Source of the DNA: an uncultured Trichormus sp.
GTDB lineage: Bacteria; Cyanobacteriota; Cyanobacteriia; Cyanobacteriales; Nostocaceae
Reading direction: 5' to 3'
Length of the DNA: 64,000 bases
Assembly (NCBI GenBank): GCA_936914905.1
Contig: CAKZGI010000287.1
Span: 1-64,000 of the forward strand
Of this stretch, positions 3,467 through 13,087 are shown one piece after another. Under the pieces are notes generated by a model, which was not told the origin of the DNA, searched no databases, and saw nothing but the letters and a program-made list of their open reading frames with translations. Each line of letters starts with the position of its first letter. Position 1 is the first letter of the stretch. The translations under genes were made by a program, and so were the position numbers.

Positions 3467-4903
3467 ATGAACTTAAATAATTTTCCGCAGAAATTACGTC
3501 AAGAAGCACAACTTTGGCGGGATGAAGGACTTATTAGTTCTTCCCAATACCAGCAGATTGCAGACCGTTATCAATTTAACAAAATAGAAGCAGCTGCAAA
3601 AGAAAGTTCTGGGCTAATAGCCATTGCTGTAGGTGGCTTACTTTTAGTTTTAGGTGTAATTATCTTTGTAGCAGCAAATTGGCAAACATGGTCAAGAGAA
3701 GTCAAGTTTATCTTGTTAATGAGTTTATTTTTGTCTACTGCTATAACTGGTTTTTTGACTTGGAGAGAACCTATACCTGCTAAAGGTGAAGATAAAAAAC
3801 AACAATGTAGTAAACGCTTACTAGGAGAGGCATTAATAATTCTCAGCGCCTTTATTTTAGGGGGAACTTTAATGCTGATGGCGCAAATATTCAATATTAG
3901 CGGTTCAGCTTATGAGTTGTTTTTAGCGTGGGGTTTTGGTGTTTTAGCGATGGCTTATAGCCTATCCCTCAATTCGTTGGGGGTTTTGGCTATTGTTCTT
4001 GTACAAATCGGCTATTGGATAGGATTAAGAGAGTTTTGGTCTTCTCCGAGTGATTTGAATTGGGCACGTTTGGCAGTGCGGCATATGCCCTTAATTTCAT
4101 GGTTGCTATTTGTACCTTTGGCATATATTTGTCGTTCACAGGTGATTTTTGTATTAGCTGCCGTTGCTTTTACTCTTTCCTTGCAATACAATCTCAACCC
4201 CTTACCATTGATAACTTTTTCTGATGTAGTACCTTGGGTGGCGTCTTTTGCATTAGCACTTCCACCGGCATTATTCTGGAGTTATGATGATTTGCTGTTC
4301 CCCACCATTAATTATAGGTTGTTTCAACCCATAGCCCATAATTTAGCGTTGGGATGTTTTGGTGTGGTCTTTTATCTGTTATCTTTTCATTGGCAGTGGC
4401 AATCTTTCAGTTATGGTTATGGTAATTCAGCAAACAATTTACCGAATATATTTCAATCTCTGCCTATAATTGATTTGGGAATTCTCAGCGGTTTAGCAGT
4501 CTTGCAATGGTTATTTCTATTTCGTCATCGAGGTAATGGAACGCGCAGAGAAGTATTTTTTACTATCACCGTCATTACCATTTTTCTGAGTTTTATTGTT
4601 ATCATACCTTTTTGGCATCAAGCTGTCGGTCGTATTACTGAACTGGGTATTTTTGTTTTCAATGTCCTATTGACAACTTTAGCTTGGGGATTGATGCAAG
4701 AAGGATTTAAGTTAAGTAACAGACTCTCTTTCTGGTGTGGTATGCTATTACTTATACTGCAAATTATCAGCCGGGTGTTAGAGTACGATACAGATTTATC
4801 GTTTAGATCACTAGTATTTGTATTGTGCGGTTCTGGTCTGATTTCTGCGGGTCTTTGGTTTGAACGTCGCTTCCATGAACGTACTTCGGTGAAGAAATAC
4901 TAG
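3467..4903 (+). CDS. DUF2157 multi-pass membrane protein
   Basis: I place the start at the ATG at 3467, which has GGAGAGG just upstream, rather than at an in-frame TTG 39 nt earlier; the product is 478 residues. A soluble N-terminus (LRQEAQLWRDEGLISSSQY) is the usual DUF2157 opening and is followed by at least ten hydrophobic segments beginning IAIAVGGLLLVLGVIIFVAANW. DUF2157 proteins are integral membrane proteins of unknown function that often sit beside GDYXXLXY proteins, as here (next gene, 330 bp downstream). The two are probably a functional pair separated by a MITE. Function unknown; family call firm. Confidence 0.85.
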   Translation: MNLNNFPQKLRQEAQLWRDEGLISSSQYQQIADRYQFNKIEAAAKESSGLIAIAVGGLLLVLGVIIFVAANWQTWSREVKFILLMSLFLSTAITGFLTWREPIPAKGEDKKQQCSKRLLGEALIILSAFILGGTLMLMAQIFNISGSAYELFLAWGFGVLAMAYSLSLNSLGVLAIVLVQIGYWIGLREFWSSPSDLNWARLAVRHMPLISWLLFVPLAYICRSQVIFVLAAVAFTLSLQYNLNPLPLITFSDVVPWVASFALALPPALFWSYDDLLFPTINYRLFQPIAHNLALGCFGVVFYLLSFHWQWQSFSYGYGNSANNLPNIFQSLPIIDLGILSGLAVLQWLFLFRHRGNGTRREVFFTITVITIFLSFIVIIPFWHQAVGRITELGIFVFNVLLTTLAWGLMQEGFKLSNRLSFWCGMLLLILQIISRVLEYDTDLSFRSLVFVLCGSGLISAGLWFERRFHERTSVKKY

Positions 4904-4976
4904 GGAAGTTATATAATTAGAATGAATAGATATATTAAATCTCTGCGTTGAAAATCCTATTAGTTATTAGTCATTA

Positions 4977-5148
4977 GAGGATGTTTTAAAAGTCTAAAAT
5001 TTCATACTGTAGCTTGCTTCCCGCAGGGGTATGTAACAATAGTGAAATAATGTATCTCATAACTTGATGAGAAGTCAAGATTCTGACCGGAACGCAATGG
5101 AGGGAAGAATTAAAAATCATACGTATCCTCTAGTTTTAAAACATCCTC
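4977..5148. mobile_element. MITE, 172 bp, with 15-bp perfect terminal inverted repeats
   Basis: GAGGATGTTTTAAAA (4977-4991) is exactly inverted as TTTTAAAACATCCTC (5134-5148). Both ends are flanked by TTA, a likely 3-bp target duplication. Ends beginning GAG plus a TNA target match the IS1031 subgroup of IS5. The interior has no ORF and contains TAGCTTGCTTCCCGCAGGGG near 5013-5032, related to a dispersed repeat seen inverted near 13290-13313. It is a non-autonomous element between two genes that normally go together. Confidence 0.8.
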
Positions 5149-5151
5149 TTA

Positions 5152-5205
5152 GTCACTAGTCATTGATAACTAACAACTGAAAACTGACAACTGATAGCTG
5201 CTGTT
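5152..5205. repeat. Degenerate heptanucleotide repeat tract
   Basis: The stretch is built from variants of ACTAACA / ACTGACA / ACTGATA in tandem. Short tandemly repeated heptanucleotides are a known feature of heterocystous cyanobacteria. It forms most of the 5' leader of the following gene, which has no clear Shine-Dalgarno. Confidence 0.6.
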
Positions 5206-5231
5206 AACTTAAGATTCACCAATTACTTATT

Positions 5232-5942
5232 ATGACAAATAACTTGCCTGAACCTAAGAAAACCTTAACTCCAGAGAAGGAGTTTTCTGAAAAACTGACT
5301 TTTCGGGATTACTTAATAGCTACTGAACAGAAAGCTAATCAGCCGTTACCGATTTGGCGGTTAATTGCTCCTTTGATGGTACAAATCGGATTGATTTTGG
5401 CAGTTCCAACCCAAGCAATGTATACGGAAATGACTGGTAAATCGGTTATTTTGCAAACTATACCTGTATATTCTAATAATTTGTTGCAGGGTTCTTCTTT
5501 GTCGCTTGATTATAATATTTCCCGCAATGAGACTTTGAGAAGATTACCTGGTTGGAGAGATTGGGTAAGACAAAATTCTCTGAGAAATGGACAAATAAAT
5601 CAAGGAAGTATCTTGTATTTGATTTTGCAAGAACAACGGTATTTTAATGGTAGTGTTCCTACAGCTTGGAGACCAATGGGTATAAGTAGTAATCGACCTA
5701 TGTATTTAACAAATAACCAGGTGGCTTTAAAAGGGAGTTATCAAGATGGGTTGATTAACTACGGTTTGGAAAAGTATTTCATTTCTGAAGAACAAAGACA
5801 GCAGATTAATAATGATATGTTGGAAACACAGCAAAACAGAGATGGACGGAGATCACCAATAGTGGTAAAATTTAAAGTAGACCCTCAAGGTAATGCTGTG
5901 CCGACGAGTATGTGGATAGGCGATCACAATTATCGCTTTTGA
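5232..5942 (+). CDS. GDYXXLXY domain protein
   Basis: This 236-residue protein has a hydrophilic N-terminus, one hydrophobic segment (about 45-65, LIAPLMVQIGLILAVPTQAM) and an extracytoplasmic domain. The pair of motifs SLSLDYNIS and GLINYGLEKYFISEEQR is typical of the GDYXXLXY family. Members co-occur with DUF2157/DUF4401 membrane proteins, and the DUF2157 gene lies directly upstream with the MITE between them. I infer that the pair acts together in the cytoplasmic membrane; the biochemical role is unknown. The start has no strong ribosome-binding site and is preceded by heptamer repeats. Confidence 0.8.
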   Translation: MTNNLPEPKKTLTPEKEFSEKLTFRDYLIATEQKANQPLPIWRLIAPLMVQIGLILAVPTQAMYTEMTGKSVILQTIPVYSNNLLQGSSLSLDYNISRNETLRRLPGWRDWVRQNSLRNGQINQGSILYLILQEQRYFNGSVPTAWRPMGISSNRPMYLTNNQVALKGSYQDGLINYGLEKYFISEEQRQQINNDMLETQQNRDGRRSPIVVKFKVDPQGNAVPTSMWIGDHNYRF

Positions 5943-6008: not shown

Positions 6009-6248
6009 TTATTCGTTATGTTTTAAGTTCCAGGCTGCACTAAAAGCTGCTCCAGCACCGGCTAATAACCCTTTACTCATGCCTTGAATAGTTCTCTCTA
6101 CTTGGTTTTGGGTCAGACATTCGCTGGTGACTCTATCAGCATTTAAGCACATTTTGCTTTCTACCCATCCAGAAGTTCCACCTAAAATGACACCAGGTAC
6201 ACTACAGGAAACAACAAGAAGCAACAAGCGTTTCATTTTTCTATCCAT
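6009..6248 (-). CDS. Small hydrophobic hypothetical protein
   Basis: This is a 79-residue product; MKRLLLLVVSCSVPGVILGG at residues 5-24 looks like a signal peptide or membrane helix, and a second glycine/alanine-rich hydrophobic helix (GLLAGAGAAFSAAW) lies near the C-terminus. Two cysteines (MCLNADRVTSECL) between them could form a periplasmic disulfide. The true start may be the second Met. I do not recognise a family. It lies between the GDYXXLXY gene and the sensor kinase with no obvious operon partner. Confidence 0.5.
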   Translation of the reverse strand: MDRKMKRLLLLVVSCSVPGVILGGTSGWVESKMCLNADRVTSECLTQNQVERTIQGMSKGLLAGAGAAFSAAWNLKHNE

Positions 6249-6323
6249 AGGTGGACGTGTGAAATAGAGGAGTGAATTAAGTTTCCAGCTACTTTACACT
6301 ATTTTGCCAACTTTTGGACACTT

Positions 6324-9300
6324 TTAAATCCGACCGGCCAATGCTGCAACCACTGAAATTAAGCGATTGGGTTCGATGGGTTTAGCAACATGAGTTTGGA
6401 ATCCTGCGGACAAAGCCTCTGTTTGGTCTGTATCTCCAGCATAGGCTGTCATTGCAGCAGCAGGAATCTGCCCTCCTTCTTCGGCACTGAGTGATCGCAC
6501 CTGACGAATTAGTGCATAACCATCTTCCTCCGGTAGCCCAATATCAGATAGAAGCACATCATAGCCATGAGGATTAGCCTTGAGTATTGATAAAGCTTCT
6601 TTTAGCGATCCTGCCTCTGTTACTTGTATTCCATACTCTTCCAGCACGATTTGAAATAATTGACGAATATCTGGTTCATCATCGACCATCAGCACCCGCA
6701 CACCAGCTAATGATGGGGAGGAGACAGGGGAATGAGAAGCAGGAGAAGCAGGAGAAATAACTGGATTTTGAGGATTTGCTATAGCACTCGTTTCTAACGT
6801 CTTTTCTAGATTAGTTTGCAGAGGTAGTCTAACAGTAAAAGTAGCACCTTGACCCTCACCTGGACTTGTCACTTCCACTGTACCACCGTGGAGTTCTACC
6901 AAATGTCGTACAATTGAAAGCCCCAATCCTAATCCAGTATTAGACCTGGTTAGGCTACAATCAGCCTGACGGAAGCGGTCAAAAATATAGGGGAGAAAGT
7001 CTGCGCTGATGCCTACCCCAGTGTCCCTAACTTGAATTTCAGCTTGAAAACTACTGTAATCTAAGGTGATATCAATTCTTCCACCCACAGAAGTAAATTT
7101 AATCGAGTTCGAAAGTAAATTCCAAATCACCTGTTGTAAGCGAATTTGATCTCCAACCAAGGTTATTTCAGCAGAATCTAGTCTCGATTGAATTTGAATA
7201 TTTTTAGCATCTGCGGCAAATTGCACCACATCTATGGCTGCTTCAATCACAGGAATAAGCTTAACAGGCTGTGCTTCCAGACGCATCTGCCCGACGCCAA
7301 TACGGGATATATCTAATAAATCCCCAATCAGCTGATGTTGTGCCTTAGCACTGCGCTCAATAGCTTCCAATGCCTGATTAGTCTTAGCTTCGTCCAGCTG
7401 CTGTTTTCGTAGCAGTTGCGTCCACCCTAGCAGACAACTTAGCGGATTACGTAACTCATGAGAAAGAACAGACAAAAACTCATCCTTGGCACAGTTTGCT
7501 GTTTCTGCCGCAGTCCGGGCTGATTGTTCTTGAGCTAGGAGTTGAGTTCGTTCTGCTTCTAATTGCTTGCGTTGGGTGATATCCTCAATTACCAAGATAA
7601 TCAGTGGCGTATCACCTATTTGCGTAATTTTTCGGCCATTGAGGCACATAATTTTGTGACCGATTTGCTCAAAGTCATGCTCAATTTCTACATCTTGAAA
7701 GTGGCCTTGTTGGGGGATACTCTCTTCCAAGAGTGATCGCAACTCGGAAATATTCCACTGTCCATCACCGATTTCATAAATGAGGCGATTTTCTGTTTCT
7801 TCTGCTCCGAGGTGGAATGCTTCATAGAAAAACTGATTAGCAGTAACCACTTTTAAATCCACATCCATCACCACCAAAGATTCCCGTACGGTAGACACAA
7901 TTGCCGCTGCATAATCACGGAATGATTTGAGGATATTAGCATTGCGTTTGATATCATCAATATCAACCAAAATTACTACCGCACCATCGATTTTGTTGTC
8001 AATAGTCCGATATGGTCTGATGCGTAGATCATACCAATAACCGTCTAAATCTTGTACCTCGTGAGTTTTCAAGTTCGAGCTGCTAATTACTTCTACAATT
8101 TTTTCTTCTAAATCGGGGATCTTTAATTTGTGTTTAATATTACTTAATGCTCGTCCCTCATCCGTAGGAATTAAATTAAATATGATCTCTGCTGCTAGAT
8201 TAAAGCGGCGAATTTTTAAATCACTCCCTAAGATCAAGATAGAAATATTAATACTACTAAAGAGATTTTGTAAATCGTTACTAACCAGAGTCACTTCTAC
8301 ATTTCGCTGTTGCAGTTCGTGGTTAATAGTATTGAGTTCTTCATTGGTAGCCTGAATTTCTTCCCTAGCAGTTTCCAATTCTTCATTGGTAATTTGCAAC
8401 TCCTCATTACTGGAGAGTATTTCTTCATTAGCTGCTCTCAAATGCTGATTACTGGCTTGCTTTTCCTCAATTATTGATTGCAGGTAATCTTTAGTGGATG
8501 TTAGTTCGTGCTGAAGAATCGTAATTTCCTGCTCATAACTGTTTTTTGTTTCCTGTTCAGGAATATTGCTATCTGCTTCCATTGGCAAGGTTTTTGAAGG
8601 GGGGATATCCTCAAACAAAACTAAAAAAAAATCTTCTGCTGCACCAATAACTGGTAAGGGAATCACATGAATGTTTAGCATCCTAGATTTGTTTTCCTCT
8701 TTAATTCGTATCCCTTCTTTTTTAATAGCAATGGATTGCCTTTTAGCTTGATAAACTGAGATACGTAGCTCTAGCCGCAATTCTTCTTTGGCCATTTTCA
8801 GCAAATTGAAACTGGGTCTACCTGGTGCAGGTTGTAAATAGGGACTTGTATGACCTCGGAATTGTAAAATCTCCAGATTATTGTTAATAATAACACCCAC
8901 AGGTGCGAATTTATTTAACACAATTCTGTCAGCCTCTTTGTGTATTTCTACATCATTCCATGAATCATTACTTATTAGCAGTGGGGATTTTGTGGTTTCC
9001 ACAGGATAGTCACTGATTATTGTCTCAATAGCCAGCCGGGTAGATGCTATTTTGCGCCCATAAATTTTGTACTTTTTATCCACTAAATTAAACAAGTCAG
9101 CAAATTCCCCCACTGTCTCCGATGTGCCTAACATCAAAAAACCTGTAGGTTTAAGACCCCAATGAAAGATTGGGAGGAGCTTTTGCTGAGCAGTAGAACC
9201 CAAATAAATTAAGACATTCCGGCAGGTGATCAAATCTAGCCGGGAAAATGGGGGATCACTAATCAGGTTCTGTCTGGCAAAAACACACAGTTCTCTAACT

Positions 9301-9857
9301 GATTTACTAATCTGGTAGCCACCGTCTACATGAACAAAGAAACGTTTTAATCGTTCTGGAGAAATATCTGCTAGTTGATGGAGTTTGAAGACACCTGTTC
9401 TGGCTTTTCCTATTGCTACTTCATTGATATCTGTAGCAAAAATCTGGATGGGTATATTAATTCCCTGATTAGTTAAAAATTCCACCAAACATATAGCAAT
9501 CGAGTAGGCTTCCTCACCGGTTGAACATCCCACAACCCATATACGAACGGGATCATTGGCTTTACGCTGCCTAGTAATAACATTTGGAAATACTTTGGTT
9601 GTTAAAGCTTCAAAAGCTTCTGAATCTCGGAAAAAACTGGTGACATTAATTAAGACGTCTTGATACAATGCGATGATTTCTGGTGGATTGTTCTGGAGAT
9701 AATTAACGTAATCTTCCATCTTATCCAGTTTATACAATATCATTCGCTGTTGAATTCGCCGCTTTAGGGTATTCTGTTTGTAATAACTAAAGTCAACACC
9801 TGTACCTGCCTGTAGCAAATTGAAAATCTTGAACAAAGCATCTGTTTTTTTCGGCAT
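6324..9857 (-). CDS. CheR-type methyltransferase / PAS / histidine kinase / receiver hybrid
   Basis: Domains in order over 1177 residues: CheR all-alpha N-terminus (about 10-60); CheR SAM-dependent methyltransferase (about 75-270, VVGCSTGEEAYSIAI as SAM motif); a long coiled coil (about 440-540, many NEEL/ANEE repeats); two PAS-like domains (about 540-780); HisKA with the phospho-accepting His in FLSVLSHELRNP; HATPase with N-box NLLSNSIKFT and DTGVGIS and GLGLGLSIV loops; and a C-terminal receiver with LSDIGLPEEDG. The family links glutamate methylation with phosphorelay, but its targets are unknown. The CheB-like gene just upstream ends 24 nt before this ATG in the same frame, so the two were probably one protein. 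This ATG has no clear ribosome-binding site, which makes independent translation doubtful. Confidence 0.85.
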   Translation of the reverse strand: MPKKTDALFKIFNLLQAGTGVDFSYYKQNTLKRRIQQRMILYKLDKMEDYVNYLQNNPPEIIALYQDVLINVTSFFRDSEAFEALTTKVFPNVITRQRKANDPVRIWVVGCSTGEEAYSIAICLVEFLTNQGINIPIQIFATDINEVAIGKARTGVFKLHQLADISPERLKRFFVHVDGGYQISKSVRELCVFARQNLISDPPFSRLDLITCRNVLIYLGSTAQQKLLPIFHWGLKPTGFLMLGTSETVGEFADLFNLVDKKYKIYGRKIASTRLAIETIISDYPVETTKSPLLISNDSWNDVEIHKEADRIVLNKFAPVGVIINNNLEILQFRGHTSPYLQPAPGRPSFNLLKMAKEELRLELRISVYQAKRQSIAIKKEGIRIKEENKSRMLNIHVIPLPVIGAAEDFFLVLFEDIPPSKTLPMEADSNIPEQETKNSYEQEITILQHELTSTKDYLQSIIEEKQASNQHLRAANEEILSSNEELQITNEELETAREEIQATNEELNTINHELQQRNVEVTLVSNDLQNLFSSINISILILGSDLKIRRFNLAAEIIFNLIPTDEGRALSNIKHKLKIPDLEEKIVEVISSSNLKTHEVQDLDGYWYDLRIRPYRTIDNKIDGAVVILVDIDDIKRNANILKSFRDYAAAIVSTVRESLVVMDVDLKVVTANQFFYEAFHLGAEETENRLIYEIGDGQWNISELRSLLEESIPQQGHFQDVEIEHDFEQIGHKIMCLNGRKITQIGDTPLIILVIEDITQRKQLEAERTQLLAQEQSARTAAETANCAKDEFLSVLSHELRNPLSCLLGWTQLLRKQQLDEAKTNQALEAIERSAKAQHQLIGDLLDISRIGVGQMRLEAQPVKLIPVIEAAIDVVQFAADAKNIQIQSRLDSAEITLVGDQIRLQQVIWNLLSNSIKFTSVGGRIDITLDYSSFQAEIQVRDTGVGISADFLPYIFDRFRQADCSLTRSNTGLGLGLSIVRHLVELHGGTVEVTSPGEGQGATFTVRLPLQTNLEKTLETSAIANPQNPVISPASPASHSPVSSPSLAGVRVLMVDDEPDIRQLFQIVLEEYGIQVTEAGSLKEALSILKANPHGYDVLLSDIGLPEEDGYALIRQVRSLSAEEGGQIPAAAMTAYAGDTDQTEALSAGFQTHVAKPIEPNRLISVVAALAGRI

Positions 9858-9881
9858 AACTTGAGTCGGTTTGACAGGTGT

Positions 9882-10562
9882 TTAGTGGTTAATATAGGTA
9901 TGAAAGCTTATGTTTGCTAGTTTTTCGGTAACTTTTCCGAGGGTGAGGATAAAGTCTACATAACCAGAAGCCACCGCGTTATTCGGCATACTACTAACTT
10001 TTGCTGATTCCTCACATTTAGGAAAAGTAATCCCACCTAATTTCTTGATGCTTTCTAAAGCCCTTGTTCCATCTCCATCACCCCCTGACAGCATAACTCC
10101 AATGGCTTTGTTACCCAAATCCTCTGCTAAGGAGAACAAGAAACCGTCAACTGTCATTGAGAGGCCATAAATCTTCTCACGGGTCCTCAGTTTCAGCACT
10201 CCTTCACTAATGGTCATTGTTGCATTGGGCCGAATCACATCAACGTGATTTGGTTGCACAGACATCCCTTCTTCAGCCTCTGTCACCGCTATTTGGGTTG
10301 TCTGAGAAAGAATCTCAATTAACATACTTTTTTGTTGGGGGTCCATGTGCTGAATCAGAACAAATCCTATACCTGTATCCGCTGGTAAATGGTTTAAAAG
10401 TTGTGTAAATGCTTCTAATTCCCCCGCAGAGGCTCCAATCCTGACAATTGGAAATAAATATTTTTGTTTCCCCAGTTGCTGTGGGGATGCTTTAGCGGTG
10501 GAATCATCAGCTTCAGATTTGTTAGAAGACCGCCTAGAGTTCATATTATGCAACCGATTCAA
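9882..10562 (-). CDS. CheB-type methylesterase domain protein
   Basis: This 226-residue protein is a stand-alone CheB catalytic domain without a receiver. The Ser-His-Asp triad is visible: Ser45 in GASAGE, His72 in IQHMDPQQ and Asp164 in SGGDGDGT. In related cyanobacterial proteins the CheB domain is the N-terminus of a CheB-CheR-PAS-kinase fusion. Here a single TAA (9882-9884) ends it, and the eight codons between this stop and the next ATG stay in frame with the CheR part. This is either a recent nonsense mutation or a natural two-gene form. All catalytic residues are kept. Confidence 0.85.
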   Translation of the reverse strand: MNRLHNMNSRRSSNKSEADDSTAKASPQQLGKQKYLFPIVRIGASAGELEAFTQLLNHLPADTGIGFVLIQHMDPQQKSMLIEILSQTTQIAVTEAEEGMSVQPNHVDVIRPNATMTISEGVLKLRTREKIYGLSMTVDGFLFSLAEDLGNKAIGVMLSGGDGDGTRALESIKKLGGITFPKCEESAKVSSMPNNAVASGYVDFILTLGKVTEKLANISFHTYINH

Positions 10563-10819
10563 GTCCAGGATCTGAATTTTCGAGTTATGAAAATCTGACT
10601 TTGCTAAGTCTACTCTAGCGGAATATAGATTATATGGCGTAGGTATTAATGGCAGCGAGAAAACAACATTAAGTAAGATTTAGAGGTATTTGTATAAATA
10701 GGTGTCATCCGATTTGGGACTTGGAATTTTCATAAGCAAAATAGGTGATCTCAGACAGGCGAAAGCCTGTAATTGCTGTTTGACAATAGAATCTCCGCCC
10801 TTCTAGGGAGGGAAGTATG
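10563..10819. other. Intergenic region with a GAAA-loop hairpin
   Basis: No gene is seen. ACAGGC-GAAA-GCCTGT (10755-10770) is a perfect 6-bp stem with a GNRA tetraloop, followed by a CCGCCCTTCTAGGGAGGG segment near 10795-10815. This could be an IS200/IS605-type end remnant, but the evidence is thin. Confidence 0.35.
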
Positions 10820-13087
10820 TCACTGTATTGGGGTTTCCTTTAGTGTAGGTTCTTCTATTGGTTCTTTTGTTAATCTTTCTGTCAGTTCTCGTTCTGGAGG
10901 ATTTTCTGCTGTAACTGTGAGTTGATAATCTACAAGTTTTGATGCTGTAGAAACAACAGCAAACTCATAAAACCATTTTTCTAGTAATGTTTTGGAAACT
11001 TTACGCTGTTGAGAATCTTCTAATAATGTCACTTTTCCAGAAGGGGAATAAATTGACAGTAAAATTTACGAACTTGCATCTATTTTAACTTCTAGATTTT
11101 GGTCTTTAGCAAGTCCAGCTATGAATACTTGACCTCCTCCTGGTGGAAGTGAACCGCTAAAGTATTTTACCTATATCACCTTCAGGAAATACTATTTTTT
11201 CAAAGGCGCTATTCGATAGGATAGCATTAAGTTCACCACTGATAAATCGGTACTAAACTTGTCCAATGGGTTGAGTGAGAAAATCTTTTCCTTTATATTC
11301 AGGAAATTCCTTCAAGAAAGCAGCATTTCCTAAGTCATATAAAGAAAGACTACCAACGTTAACTTTATTAACTTCTACTTTCGAGCGATAGCGTTCTGCT
11401 GAAGTATAAGTTCCTAGTAGACAACGAGAGTTATAACTCAATCCTGATAATTTTCTAGCACTTGGGATGGGACCTGATCCCATTCTTCCCGCAAGCTTTA
11501 ATCGTCTGCACTATTGCTGAGGGTACGTCCTTTTAAAGAGGGGTTATTCTCCCAAAAGATTTGATTGACTAAACTCACATAATAATTAAAATCTATATCT
11601 AATTGGTGGCGGTGATCGCTCAATTTTTGTTTCCGTTCTCTATCTTCTGGTGAATAATTATCGATAATCTCAGGGTATTTACTGATACTAGGGGTAGGAC
11701 TGAATGTAATCAAGGAGTTGGTTCCTCCTATATCCCTTGTCTGTCCATTGAATCCCCATCAAAGTAGCCCTGCACTAGCAGATAAGGTCAGAGTAATAAT
11801 AAAAACATTAGTTTTTATCCAAATACTTACGGACTAGTAAGTGGGAGTAATTACAGGTTGAGGTGCTGGGTTTTTGCGGCGAGAAACAGTAACAGTTTCC
11901 GATATAGGAATAGGCCAGGCCTTGGTGTAGGAGTTGGTAATGGAGTTAGAGAATAGTTACCAGGGATTTGGGTGTAGTATAAATTACCATGTTTAGATTG
12001 AGTGCTCCTACAACTTGACGGGGTCTTTAATAGCGATCACCAGCCCTTTCAGATAGCATTTTATCTAAAATTTGACCAATTTCGGGACTAACGTTCACTT
12101 CCCGCCACCATTACCAACTAAGATGATGAGTATCAATTAGTTCTTAGGTGTATTTACCTGTCAGCAAAACTAACACTGTCACAGCCAAAGCATATAAATC
12201 ACTATGAGGAAAAACTGTACCTGTTTGCACTTGTTCAGGACGTGCAAATCCGACTTTTCGTAAGAGAGTTCCACTGGAAGGAGATGACGTCATACTAGTT
12301 TGATAATATTGAGAAGCGACCGTTGCCACAACTTGTTTAACACCACCAAAATCAATTAAAACTGGTAATTGATCAACAGCGCGGAGCATTAAATTATCAG
12401 GAGAAATATCACGGTGCATATCCTTTCTTAGCCAAGAAAGTACCATTACCACCGAACTGGGTATATCAAGAACCGTAATAAGTTGGTAACTGTTTCACCC
12501 CACCAAAATCAATTAACACAGGCAAATTATCTCCTTGACGTAAAATTAAATTATCGGGACAAATATCCCTATGAATAATATTTAATGTGTGAATTTAATT
12601 CAAAACTGGGAGAATGATGATGTAATAGATTAATCACCTCCTCCTCACTAAAAGATTTTCCCTGACTGTGACGCTGTTCTAATAATCGGTAATAATTATT
12701 ACCCTAAATATAATCTTGCACCAAAAATAAAAAATTCTCAGTACCGATTTTTGCTTCAATAAAAGCGTGAAAACGCGGTATTTGAGGATGTTAAATTTTT
12801 TTAGTACACTTGCTTACCTCTCAAATAATTCCTTAGATTTTTGTAAATCCTCTGTTTTCATAACCTGGGTCGTAAATTCCTTCAAAACGCATTTTTGATG
12901 TACTTCTTGTCTATCAAACACCAAATAACTACGCCCAAACCCACCTTACCCTAATACATGATATATGCCAAGTTTCATAACGATTATAAATAACTTGTTC
13001 TAATGTCAACAACAAAGCCTCACTAGGACGAGTACACAAACGGTGACTACTATTATTAGCGTGTTCTTGACTACAAGATACTTGCAT
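10820..13087 (-). pseudogene. Broken and chimeric serine/threonine protein kinase
   Basis: Read on the minus strand from 13087, the N-terminus MQVSCSQEHANNSSHRLC and the pseudo-zinc-finger region lead into a kinase N-lobe (glycine loop near 12945, FDRQEVHQKCVLKEF with the ATP-Lys), then HRDICPDNL and VLIDFGGVKQ. Around 12440-12480 the sequence returns to a second catalytic loop (HRDISPDNL, VLIDFGGVKQ) and continues through SDLYALAVTVLVLLTGK. It ends with the kinase-tail domain seen in cyanobacteria (LYDLGNAAFLKEFPEYKGKDF). Numerous frameshifts and stops interrupt it. The duplicated HRD loop implies either fusion of two tandem kinases or a partial internal duplication. It cannot make a functional kinase. 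Confidence 0.85.

Follow-up and report, generated by a model that had tools for sequence, protein, structure and literature searches.

Probable domain-by-domain erosion of a CheB-CheR-histidine kinase fusion gene in a Trichormus lineage

Introduction

Heavy pseudogenisation, with signal transduction among the classes hit hardest, is reported for Trichormus ('Nostoc') azollae, which lives in symbiosis with the water fern Azolla (PMC2900214, PMC12376041, PMC12362246). The genome of 'Nostoc azollae' 0708, composed of one chromosome and two plasmids, has 5,486,145 bp and 31.2% pseudogenes (PMC2900214), and signal transduction is listed for T. azollae among the classes in which pseudogenes outnumber intact genes (PMC12376041). 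The passages used from the latter source also speak of an absence of chemotaxis genes, and those used from another report cheR as missing in all eight genomes studied, in a symbiont whose hormogonia are still motile (PMC12362246).

The sequence analysed here, referred to as the window, is a stretch of 64,000 nucleotides from an uncultured Trichormus sp. (assembly GCA_936914905.1, contig CAKZGI010000287.1), whose genome probably represents another T. azollae lineage. Its gene of interest resembles the fusions of CheB, CheR, PAS, histidine kinase and receiver domains that are found in other Nostocaceae (genomes G001, G230, G111, G223 and others), with which it shares the domain order, and it is collinear with the fusion of G001, its same-genus sister. 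In contrast to these intact fusions, the window gene is split by a stop codon and its CheB part is decaying. It also differs from the reported T. azollae pseudogenes in that one domain decays while the rest of the gene stays constrained.

The split gene

The gene lies on the minus strand (Table 1). An earlier note on this DNA had described a CheB frame that ends at a TAA, followed by eight codons open in the same frame and then by the ATG of CheR, and direct reading of the sequence confirms it: the CheB frame runs from a TTG at 10562 to the TAA at 9884-9882 (226 aa), and 27 bases, counted from the first base of the stop, precede ATG 9857. CheB, CheR_N, CheR, PAS, HisKA, HATPase_c and receiver follow each other on one strand, in the order of the fusion family, and the TAA is what deprives the window gene of a single uninterrupted frame. 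The CheR-kinase ORF itself contains neither a stop nor a frameshift in its 1177 codons.

Together, the 226 codons of CheB, the stop, the eight linker codons and the 1177 codons of the second ORF make 1412 positions, which agrees with the length of about 1412 residues that the note had predicted upon removal of the stop, and the open frame of the fused G001 orthologue is also 1412 aa long. The true start of CheB is probably ATG 10544, TTG 10562 being less likely, because in four relatives (G197, G190, G189 and G108) the corresponding ATG is closely preceded by a stop; CheB would then comprise 220 aa and the ancestral product 1406 aa. Neither the window proteins nor the G001 fusion had an NCBIfam match that exceeded the cut-off of its family (for the two long ones, among the best 25 of 133 and the best 25 of 132 matches).

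Table 1. Features of the split fusion gene in the window (dN/dS values relative to G001).
Feature	Coordinates	Strand	Basis
In-frame TAA closing the CheB frame, in the CheB/CheR linker	9882..9884	-	Sense codon in 13/13 aligned orthologues
Eight open codons, linker remnant between stop and ATG	9858..9881	-	Read directly
ATG, probable restart codon of the CheR-kinase ORF; a methionine long present inside the fused protein	9855..9857	-	ATG in 8/14 aligned genes, window gene included
Decaying CheB ORF, 220 aa when counted from the likely ATG	9882..10544	-	Pfam CheB_methylest, 162.8 bits
CheR-PAS-hybrid histidine kinase-receiver ORF, 1177 aa, from ATG 9857 down to 6324	6324..9857	-	Pfam; dN/dS 0.34 (0.26-0.43)
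CheR_N domain	9684..9830	-	Pfam
CheR SAM-binding methyltransferase domain	9069..9647	-	Pfam; CheR_N+CheR dN/dS 0.56
PAS_10 domain	7956..8273	-	Pfam
HisKA + HATPase_c, kinase core	6816..7490	-	Pfam; dN/dS 0.16
Receiver domain	6348..6695	-	Pfam; dN/dS 0.13
CheB position 41, Gly in 13/13 aligned relatives, Arg here (G41R)	10440..10442	-	Not conserved in two aligned solved CheB chains
CheB position 48, the Gly that closes the GASAGG nucleophile loop in 13/13 aligned relatives, Glu here (GASAGE)	10419..10421	-	Gly in two aligned solved CheB chains

The CheR start had been noted to lack a ribosome-binding site, and indeed no Shine-Dalgarno sequence was found before ATG 9857, with a duplex energy of 0.0 kcal/mol. 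Among 600 plus-strand ATGs of the window, 85% bind as well or better, yet the score is poorer for four of the 23 other long ATG frames in the window.

Fusion in related genomes

A first survey of orthologues covered 60 genomes, including that of the window, and gave a match at E <= 0.001 in 55 of them. The best 26 matches comprise 19 frames of 1370-1440 aa and five of 979-1259 aa, while the remaining two belong to the window genome (265) and to G031 (269). The only same-genus genome in this survey is G001, with its fusion of 1412 aa and a CheB identity of 83%.

A larger family search, in which 132 of 217 genomes had a match at E <= 1e-60, gave at least 150 matches; those listed represent 126 of these 132 genomes, were counted by hand, and all 150 cover the linker. 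The stretch from CheB across the linker into CheR is free of stops in 144 of the 150 matches listed, a count that concerns only openness across the linker, as several of these genes break into short frames farther downstream, through frameshifts or missing parts. Another four, the genes of G197, G190, G189 and G108, have their stop before the true ATG, at reference residues 3-4, which rules them out as parallel splits. Among the 150 matches listed, a stop in the linker is present in the window genome only, and the gene of G031 is broken nearby by an insertion. The sister G001 has the serine codon TCA at this position, one base away from the stop codon of the window.

Judged from these alignments, the split is a derived state of an ancestrally fused gene, seen in the window genome only among the matches listed, and the proposal that a single in-frame TAA divides a fused gene is upheld. 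Orthologues consistently encoded as two genes, with the stop conserved, would have spoken against it; the opposite was found, and a conserved two-gene architecture is ruled out by the fused frames and the stop-free linkers of the relatives. The note had also considered readthrough, by which a programmed decoding of the TAA would preserve the fused protein, and the eight codons and the whole of CheR do remain open in frame. Nevertheless, no other match among the 150 listed carries the linker stop, and CheB would remain constrained under readthrough, which it is not, making this explanation hardly credible. A sequencing or assembly error is conceivable in that one base separates the codon of the window from that of the sister and that the assembly consists of 485 contigs with a contamination of 3.5%. 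Against such an error, which is very unlikely, the flanks follow G001 collinearly for 9.2 kb, at 93.7%, and the loss of constraint described below is spread over CheB, independently of the stop.

The break in G031 is due to an IS1634-family element of ~2 kb with 31-base inverted repeats (L033, G031:C1:4238000-4254000, ~6113-8156), which encodes on the opposite strand a 535-aa transposase, assigned to this family by search. The insertion site lies ~17 codons behind the position of the window stop, close to the CheB/CheR linker. The two genes have independent breaks near the same linker, each with a kinase frame that is open downstream; they differ in that the G031 gene is interrupted by an insertion element and has a CheB dN/dS of 0.05 (pair G031-G223), whereas the window gene is interrupted by a stop and has a CheB dN/dS of 0.95. 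G031 belongs to another genus than the window genome, and its same-genus relative G223 has an intact fusion. Five other orthologous fusions (L088, L091, L092, L095 and L097, of G189, G233, G132, G067 and G105, respectively) match in two frames or with gaps, at different places, which may reflect decay or sequencing errors.

Substitution rates along the gene

Values of dN/dS are Nei-Gojobori counts on a MAFFT alignment in which one genome represents the window gene, and branch values come from three-point subtraction over seven outgroups. Relative to G001, CheB has a dN/dS of 0.95 (bootstrap 0.49-2.08), a wide interval that rests on only 11.5 synonymous changes. The ratio is 0.56 (0.31-1.11) in CheR_N+CheR, so that CheR is relaxed, and 0.37 (0.24-0.54) in the PAS region, 0.16 (0.07-0.33) in the kinase core and 0.13 (0.00-0.86) in the receiver; the CheR-kinase ORF as a whole (Table 1) shows no loss of purifying selection. 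In three outgroup pairs, CheB has values of 0.075-0.11, and the pair G031-G223 served as a control.

Most of the change in CheB falls on the branch of the window genome, with a branch dN of 0.071 versus 0.021 in G001. The CheR-kinase part is also faster here, at 0.026 versus 0.016 (difference 0.003-0.018), so some of the relaxation reaches downstream of CheB. The receiver (0.004 versus 0.003) and the kinase core (0.015 versus 0.009) show no significant acceleration. FastTree tip lengths for the window gene and G001 are 0.187 and 0.064 in CheB, 0.079 and 0.061 in CheR, 0.103 and 0.039 in the PAS region, 0.032 and 0.021 in the kinase core, and 0.007 and 0.011 in the receiver.

Of the 83 CheB positions that are invariant in the 12 other orthologues, 14 are changed in the window gene and one in G001. 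For the 474 such positions of the CheR-kinase part, the counts are 31 in the window gene and 25 in G001, 17 of them common to both, and the private departures of the window gene are concentrated in CheB (14/83 versus 14/474, p = 7e-6). In counts of nonsynonymous and synonymous changes, CheB differs from the kinase core (p = 0.0006), as does CheR (p = 0.007), while the difference between CheB and the PAS region is marginal (p = 0.07). CheB and CheR do not differ in these counts (p = 0.50), and a step in constraint between the two is, on this comparison, not proved.

By these rates, CheB is close to unconstrained, and constraint has persisted in the kinase core and receiver since the lineage diverged from the sister. 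CheB is closer to the sister (91.2% identity) than the adjoining broken kinase-like stretch is (88.9%), from which it follows that CheB drifted mainly on the branch of the window and not freely on both; its N-terminal extension has 97.8% identity to the sister. In neutral simulations with random substitution (20-48 changes), the CheB frame stays open in 23-52% of the runs, and its openness is therefore no counter-argument to decay. The CheB part thus combines two marks of a pseudogene, namely disruption in comparison with intact orthologues and loss of purifying selection.

The Ser, His and Asp of CheB, the kinase His, the Asp and Lys of the receiver and three residues of the CheR motifs, which we take to be the functional ones, are all kept in the alignment. 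The earlier statement that both halves retain every catalytic residue holds for these; it does not extend to the nucleophile loop of CheB, in which GASAGG has become GASAGE, nor to the 14 changed positions mentioned above. That a frame is open and has its catalytic residues is no evidence that the domain is intact, and here the substitution rates said the opposite. For the same reasons, it seems highly improbable that CheB and the CheR-kinase part now work as two separate proteins, which had been suggested as well: both frames are open, the CheB triad is kept and the G031 gene is also cut near this linker, but a dN/dS near 1, the changed invariant residues and the lost loop glycine would not be expected of a working CheB.

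CheB was losing its constraint well before now, as its dN/dS and its changed invariant residues indicate, and a recent split with an intact CheB is ruled out on the same grounds. This qualifies the idea of a very recent mutation. It may apply to the stop itself, which may have arisen after CheB began to decay, but not to CheB, whose branch dN of 0.071 compares with ~0.063 for half of the pairwise dS measured in the CheR-kinase part and indicates a loss of constraint over about the whole branch.

Erosion of the sensor kinase

The reading that accounts best for these results, with a probability of roughly 0.78, is a lineage-specific, domain-by-domain erosion of a multidomain sensor kinase, in which a pseudogene-rich symbiont lineage lost a dispensable CheB module and kept the CheR-PAS-kinase-receiver part. 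The ancestral product would have been a single protein of CheB, CheR, PAS, histidine kinase core and receiver. CheB would no longer have been needed in the window lineage and would have drifted, and a point mutation would have produced the TAA in the linker behind it. From the old internal ATG 9857, the entire CheR-PAS-kinase-receiver frame would still be open to translation, probably either through termination-reinitiation or through a start that needs no Shine-Dalgarno sequence, and the kinase end would survive while CheB decays. As the conservation of the ORF suggests, translation from ATG 9857 probably still yields this part. We infer that CheB was lost since adaptation chemistry is dispensable inside the host plant. 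Against erosion of this kind stand the kept CheB triad in an open frame, the start without a Shine-Dalgarno sequence and the faster change of the CheR-kinase part here than in G001.

The last two of these points would also fit a gene that is a pseudogene over its entire length, with nothing made behind the stop and a kinase that looks constrained only since the stop is young, as would the broken-up kinase-like region at 10.8-13 kb and the eroded look of the genome. This is unlikely, given 1177 codons free of stops and frameshifts and the branch dN of the receiver and kinase core, which are not significantly raised. A doubtful variant, which cites the second, independent break in G031, is that the amputation was selected: the symbiont would be stripping an adaptation-coupled sensor kinase down to a simpler one, shedding CheB first and CheR next from the N-terminus, with the linker methionine as a ready-made restart that lets breaks in the linker be tolerated.

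Domain-by-domain erosion is a known kind of event, and the gene is a clear single-gene example of ordinary gene erosion, not a new kind of system. Its value lies in showing, within one gene, the parts of a chemosensory adaptation module that a plant symbiont may dispense with: the receiver and kinase core are highly constrained, CheR and CheB little.

Other chemotaxis genes and neighbouring sequence

The CheR domain of the fusion is open in both same-genus genomes, that of the window and G001, and for this reason the reported absence of cheR presumably concerns the stand-alone gene. Another CheB match of the window genome lies in two frames owing to a frameshift (L119, G000:C150:1-10000, 4705-5269), and another CheR match carries a TAA (L120, G000:C275:3000-15000, 5358-5930); G001 has one full CheB, that of the fusion, and a 30-position remnant. 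Each of the two genomes retains MCP signalling domains and CheA-type dimerisation domains, two of each kind, which rules out that CheB was lost because all chemoreceptors are gone.

A nifH match with internal stops is present in the window genome (G000:C215:719-1406), while three nifH of G001 are open. A nifH with stops is reported for the symbiont of A. nilotica in the part of the source used here, a likeness that is weak evidence on the strain (PMC12362246).

Upstream of CheB, a search for repeats within the window found none. Positions 10671-10760 of the window match G001 (L032, ~8722-8908) as two pieces that overlap, which would fit a short tandem duplication in G001. The adjoining stretch at 10820-12980 is a broken-up kinase-like sequence that is partly collinear with G001, and it includes at 12144-12452 a frame of 102 aa that, judged by look, resembles a serine/threonine kinase.
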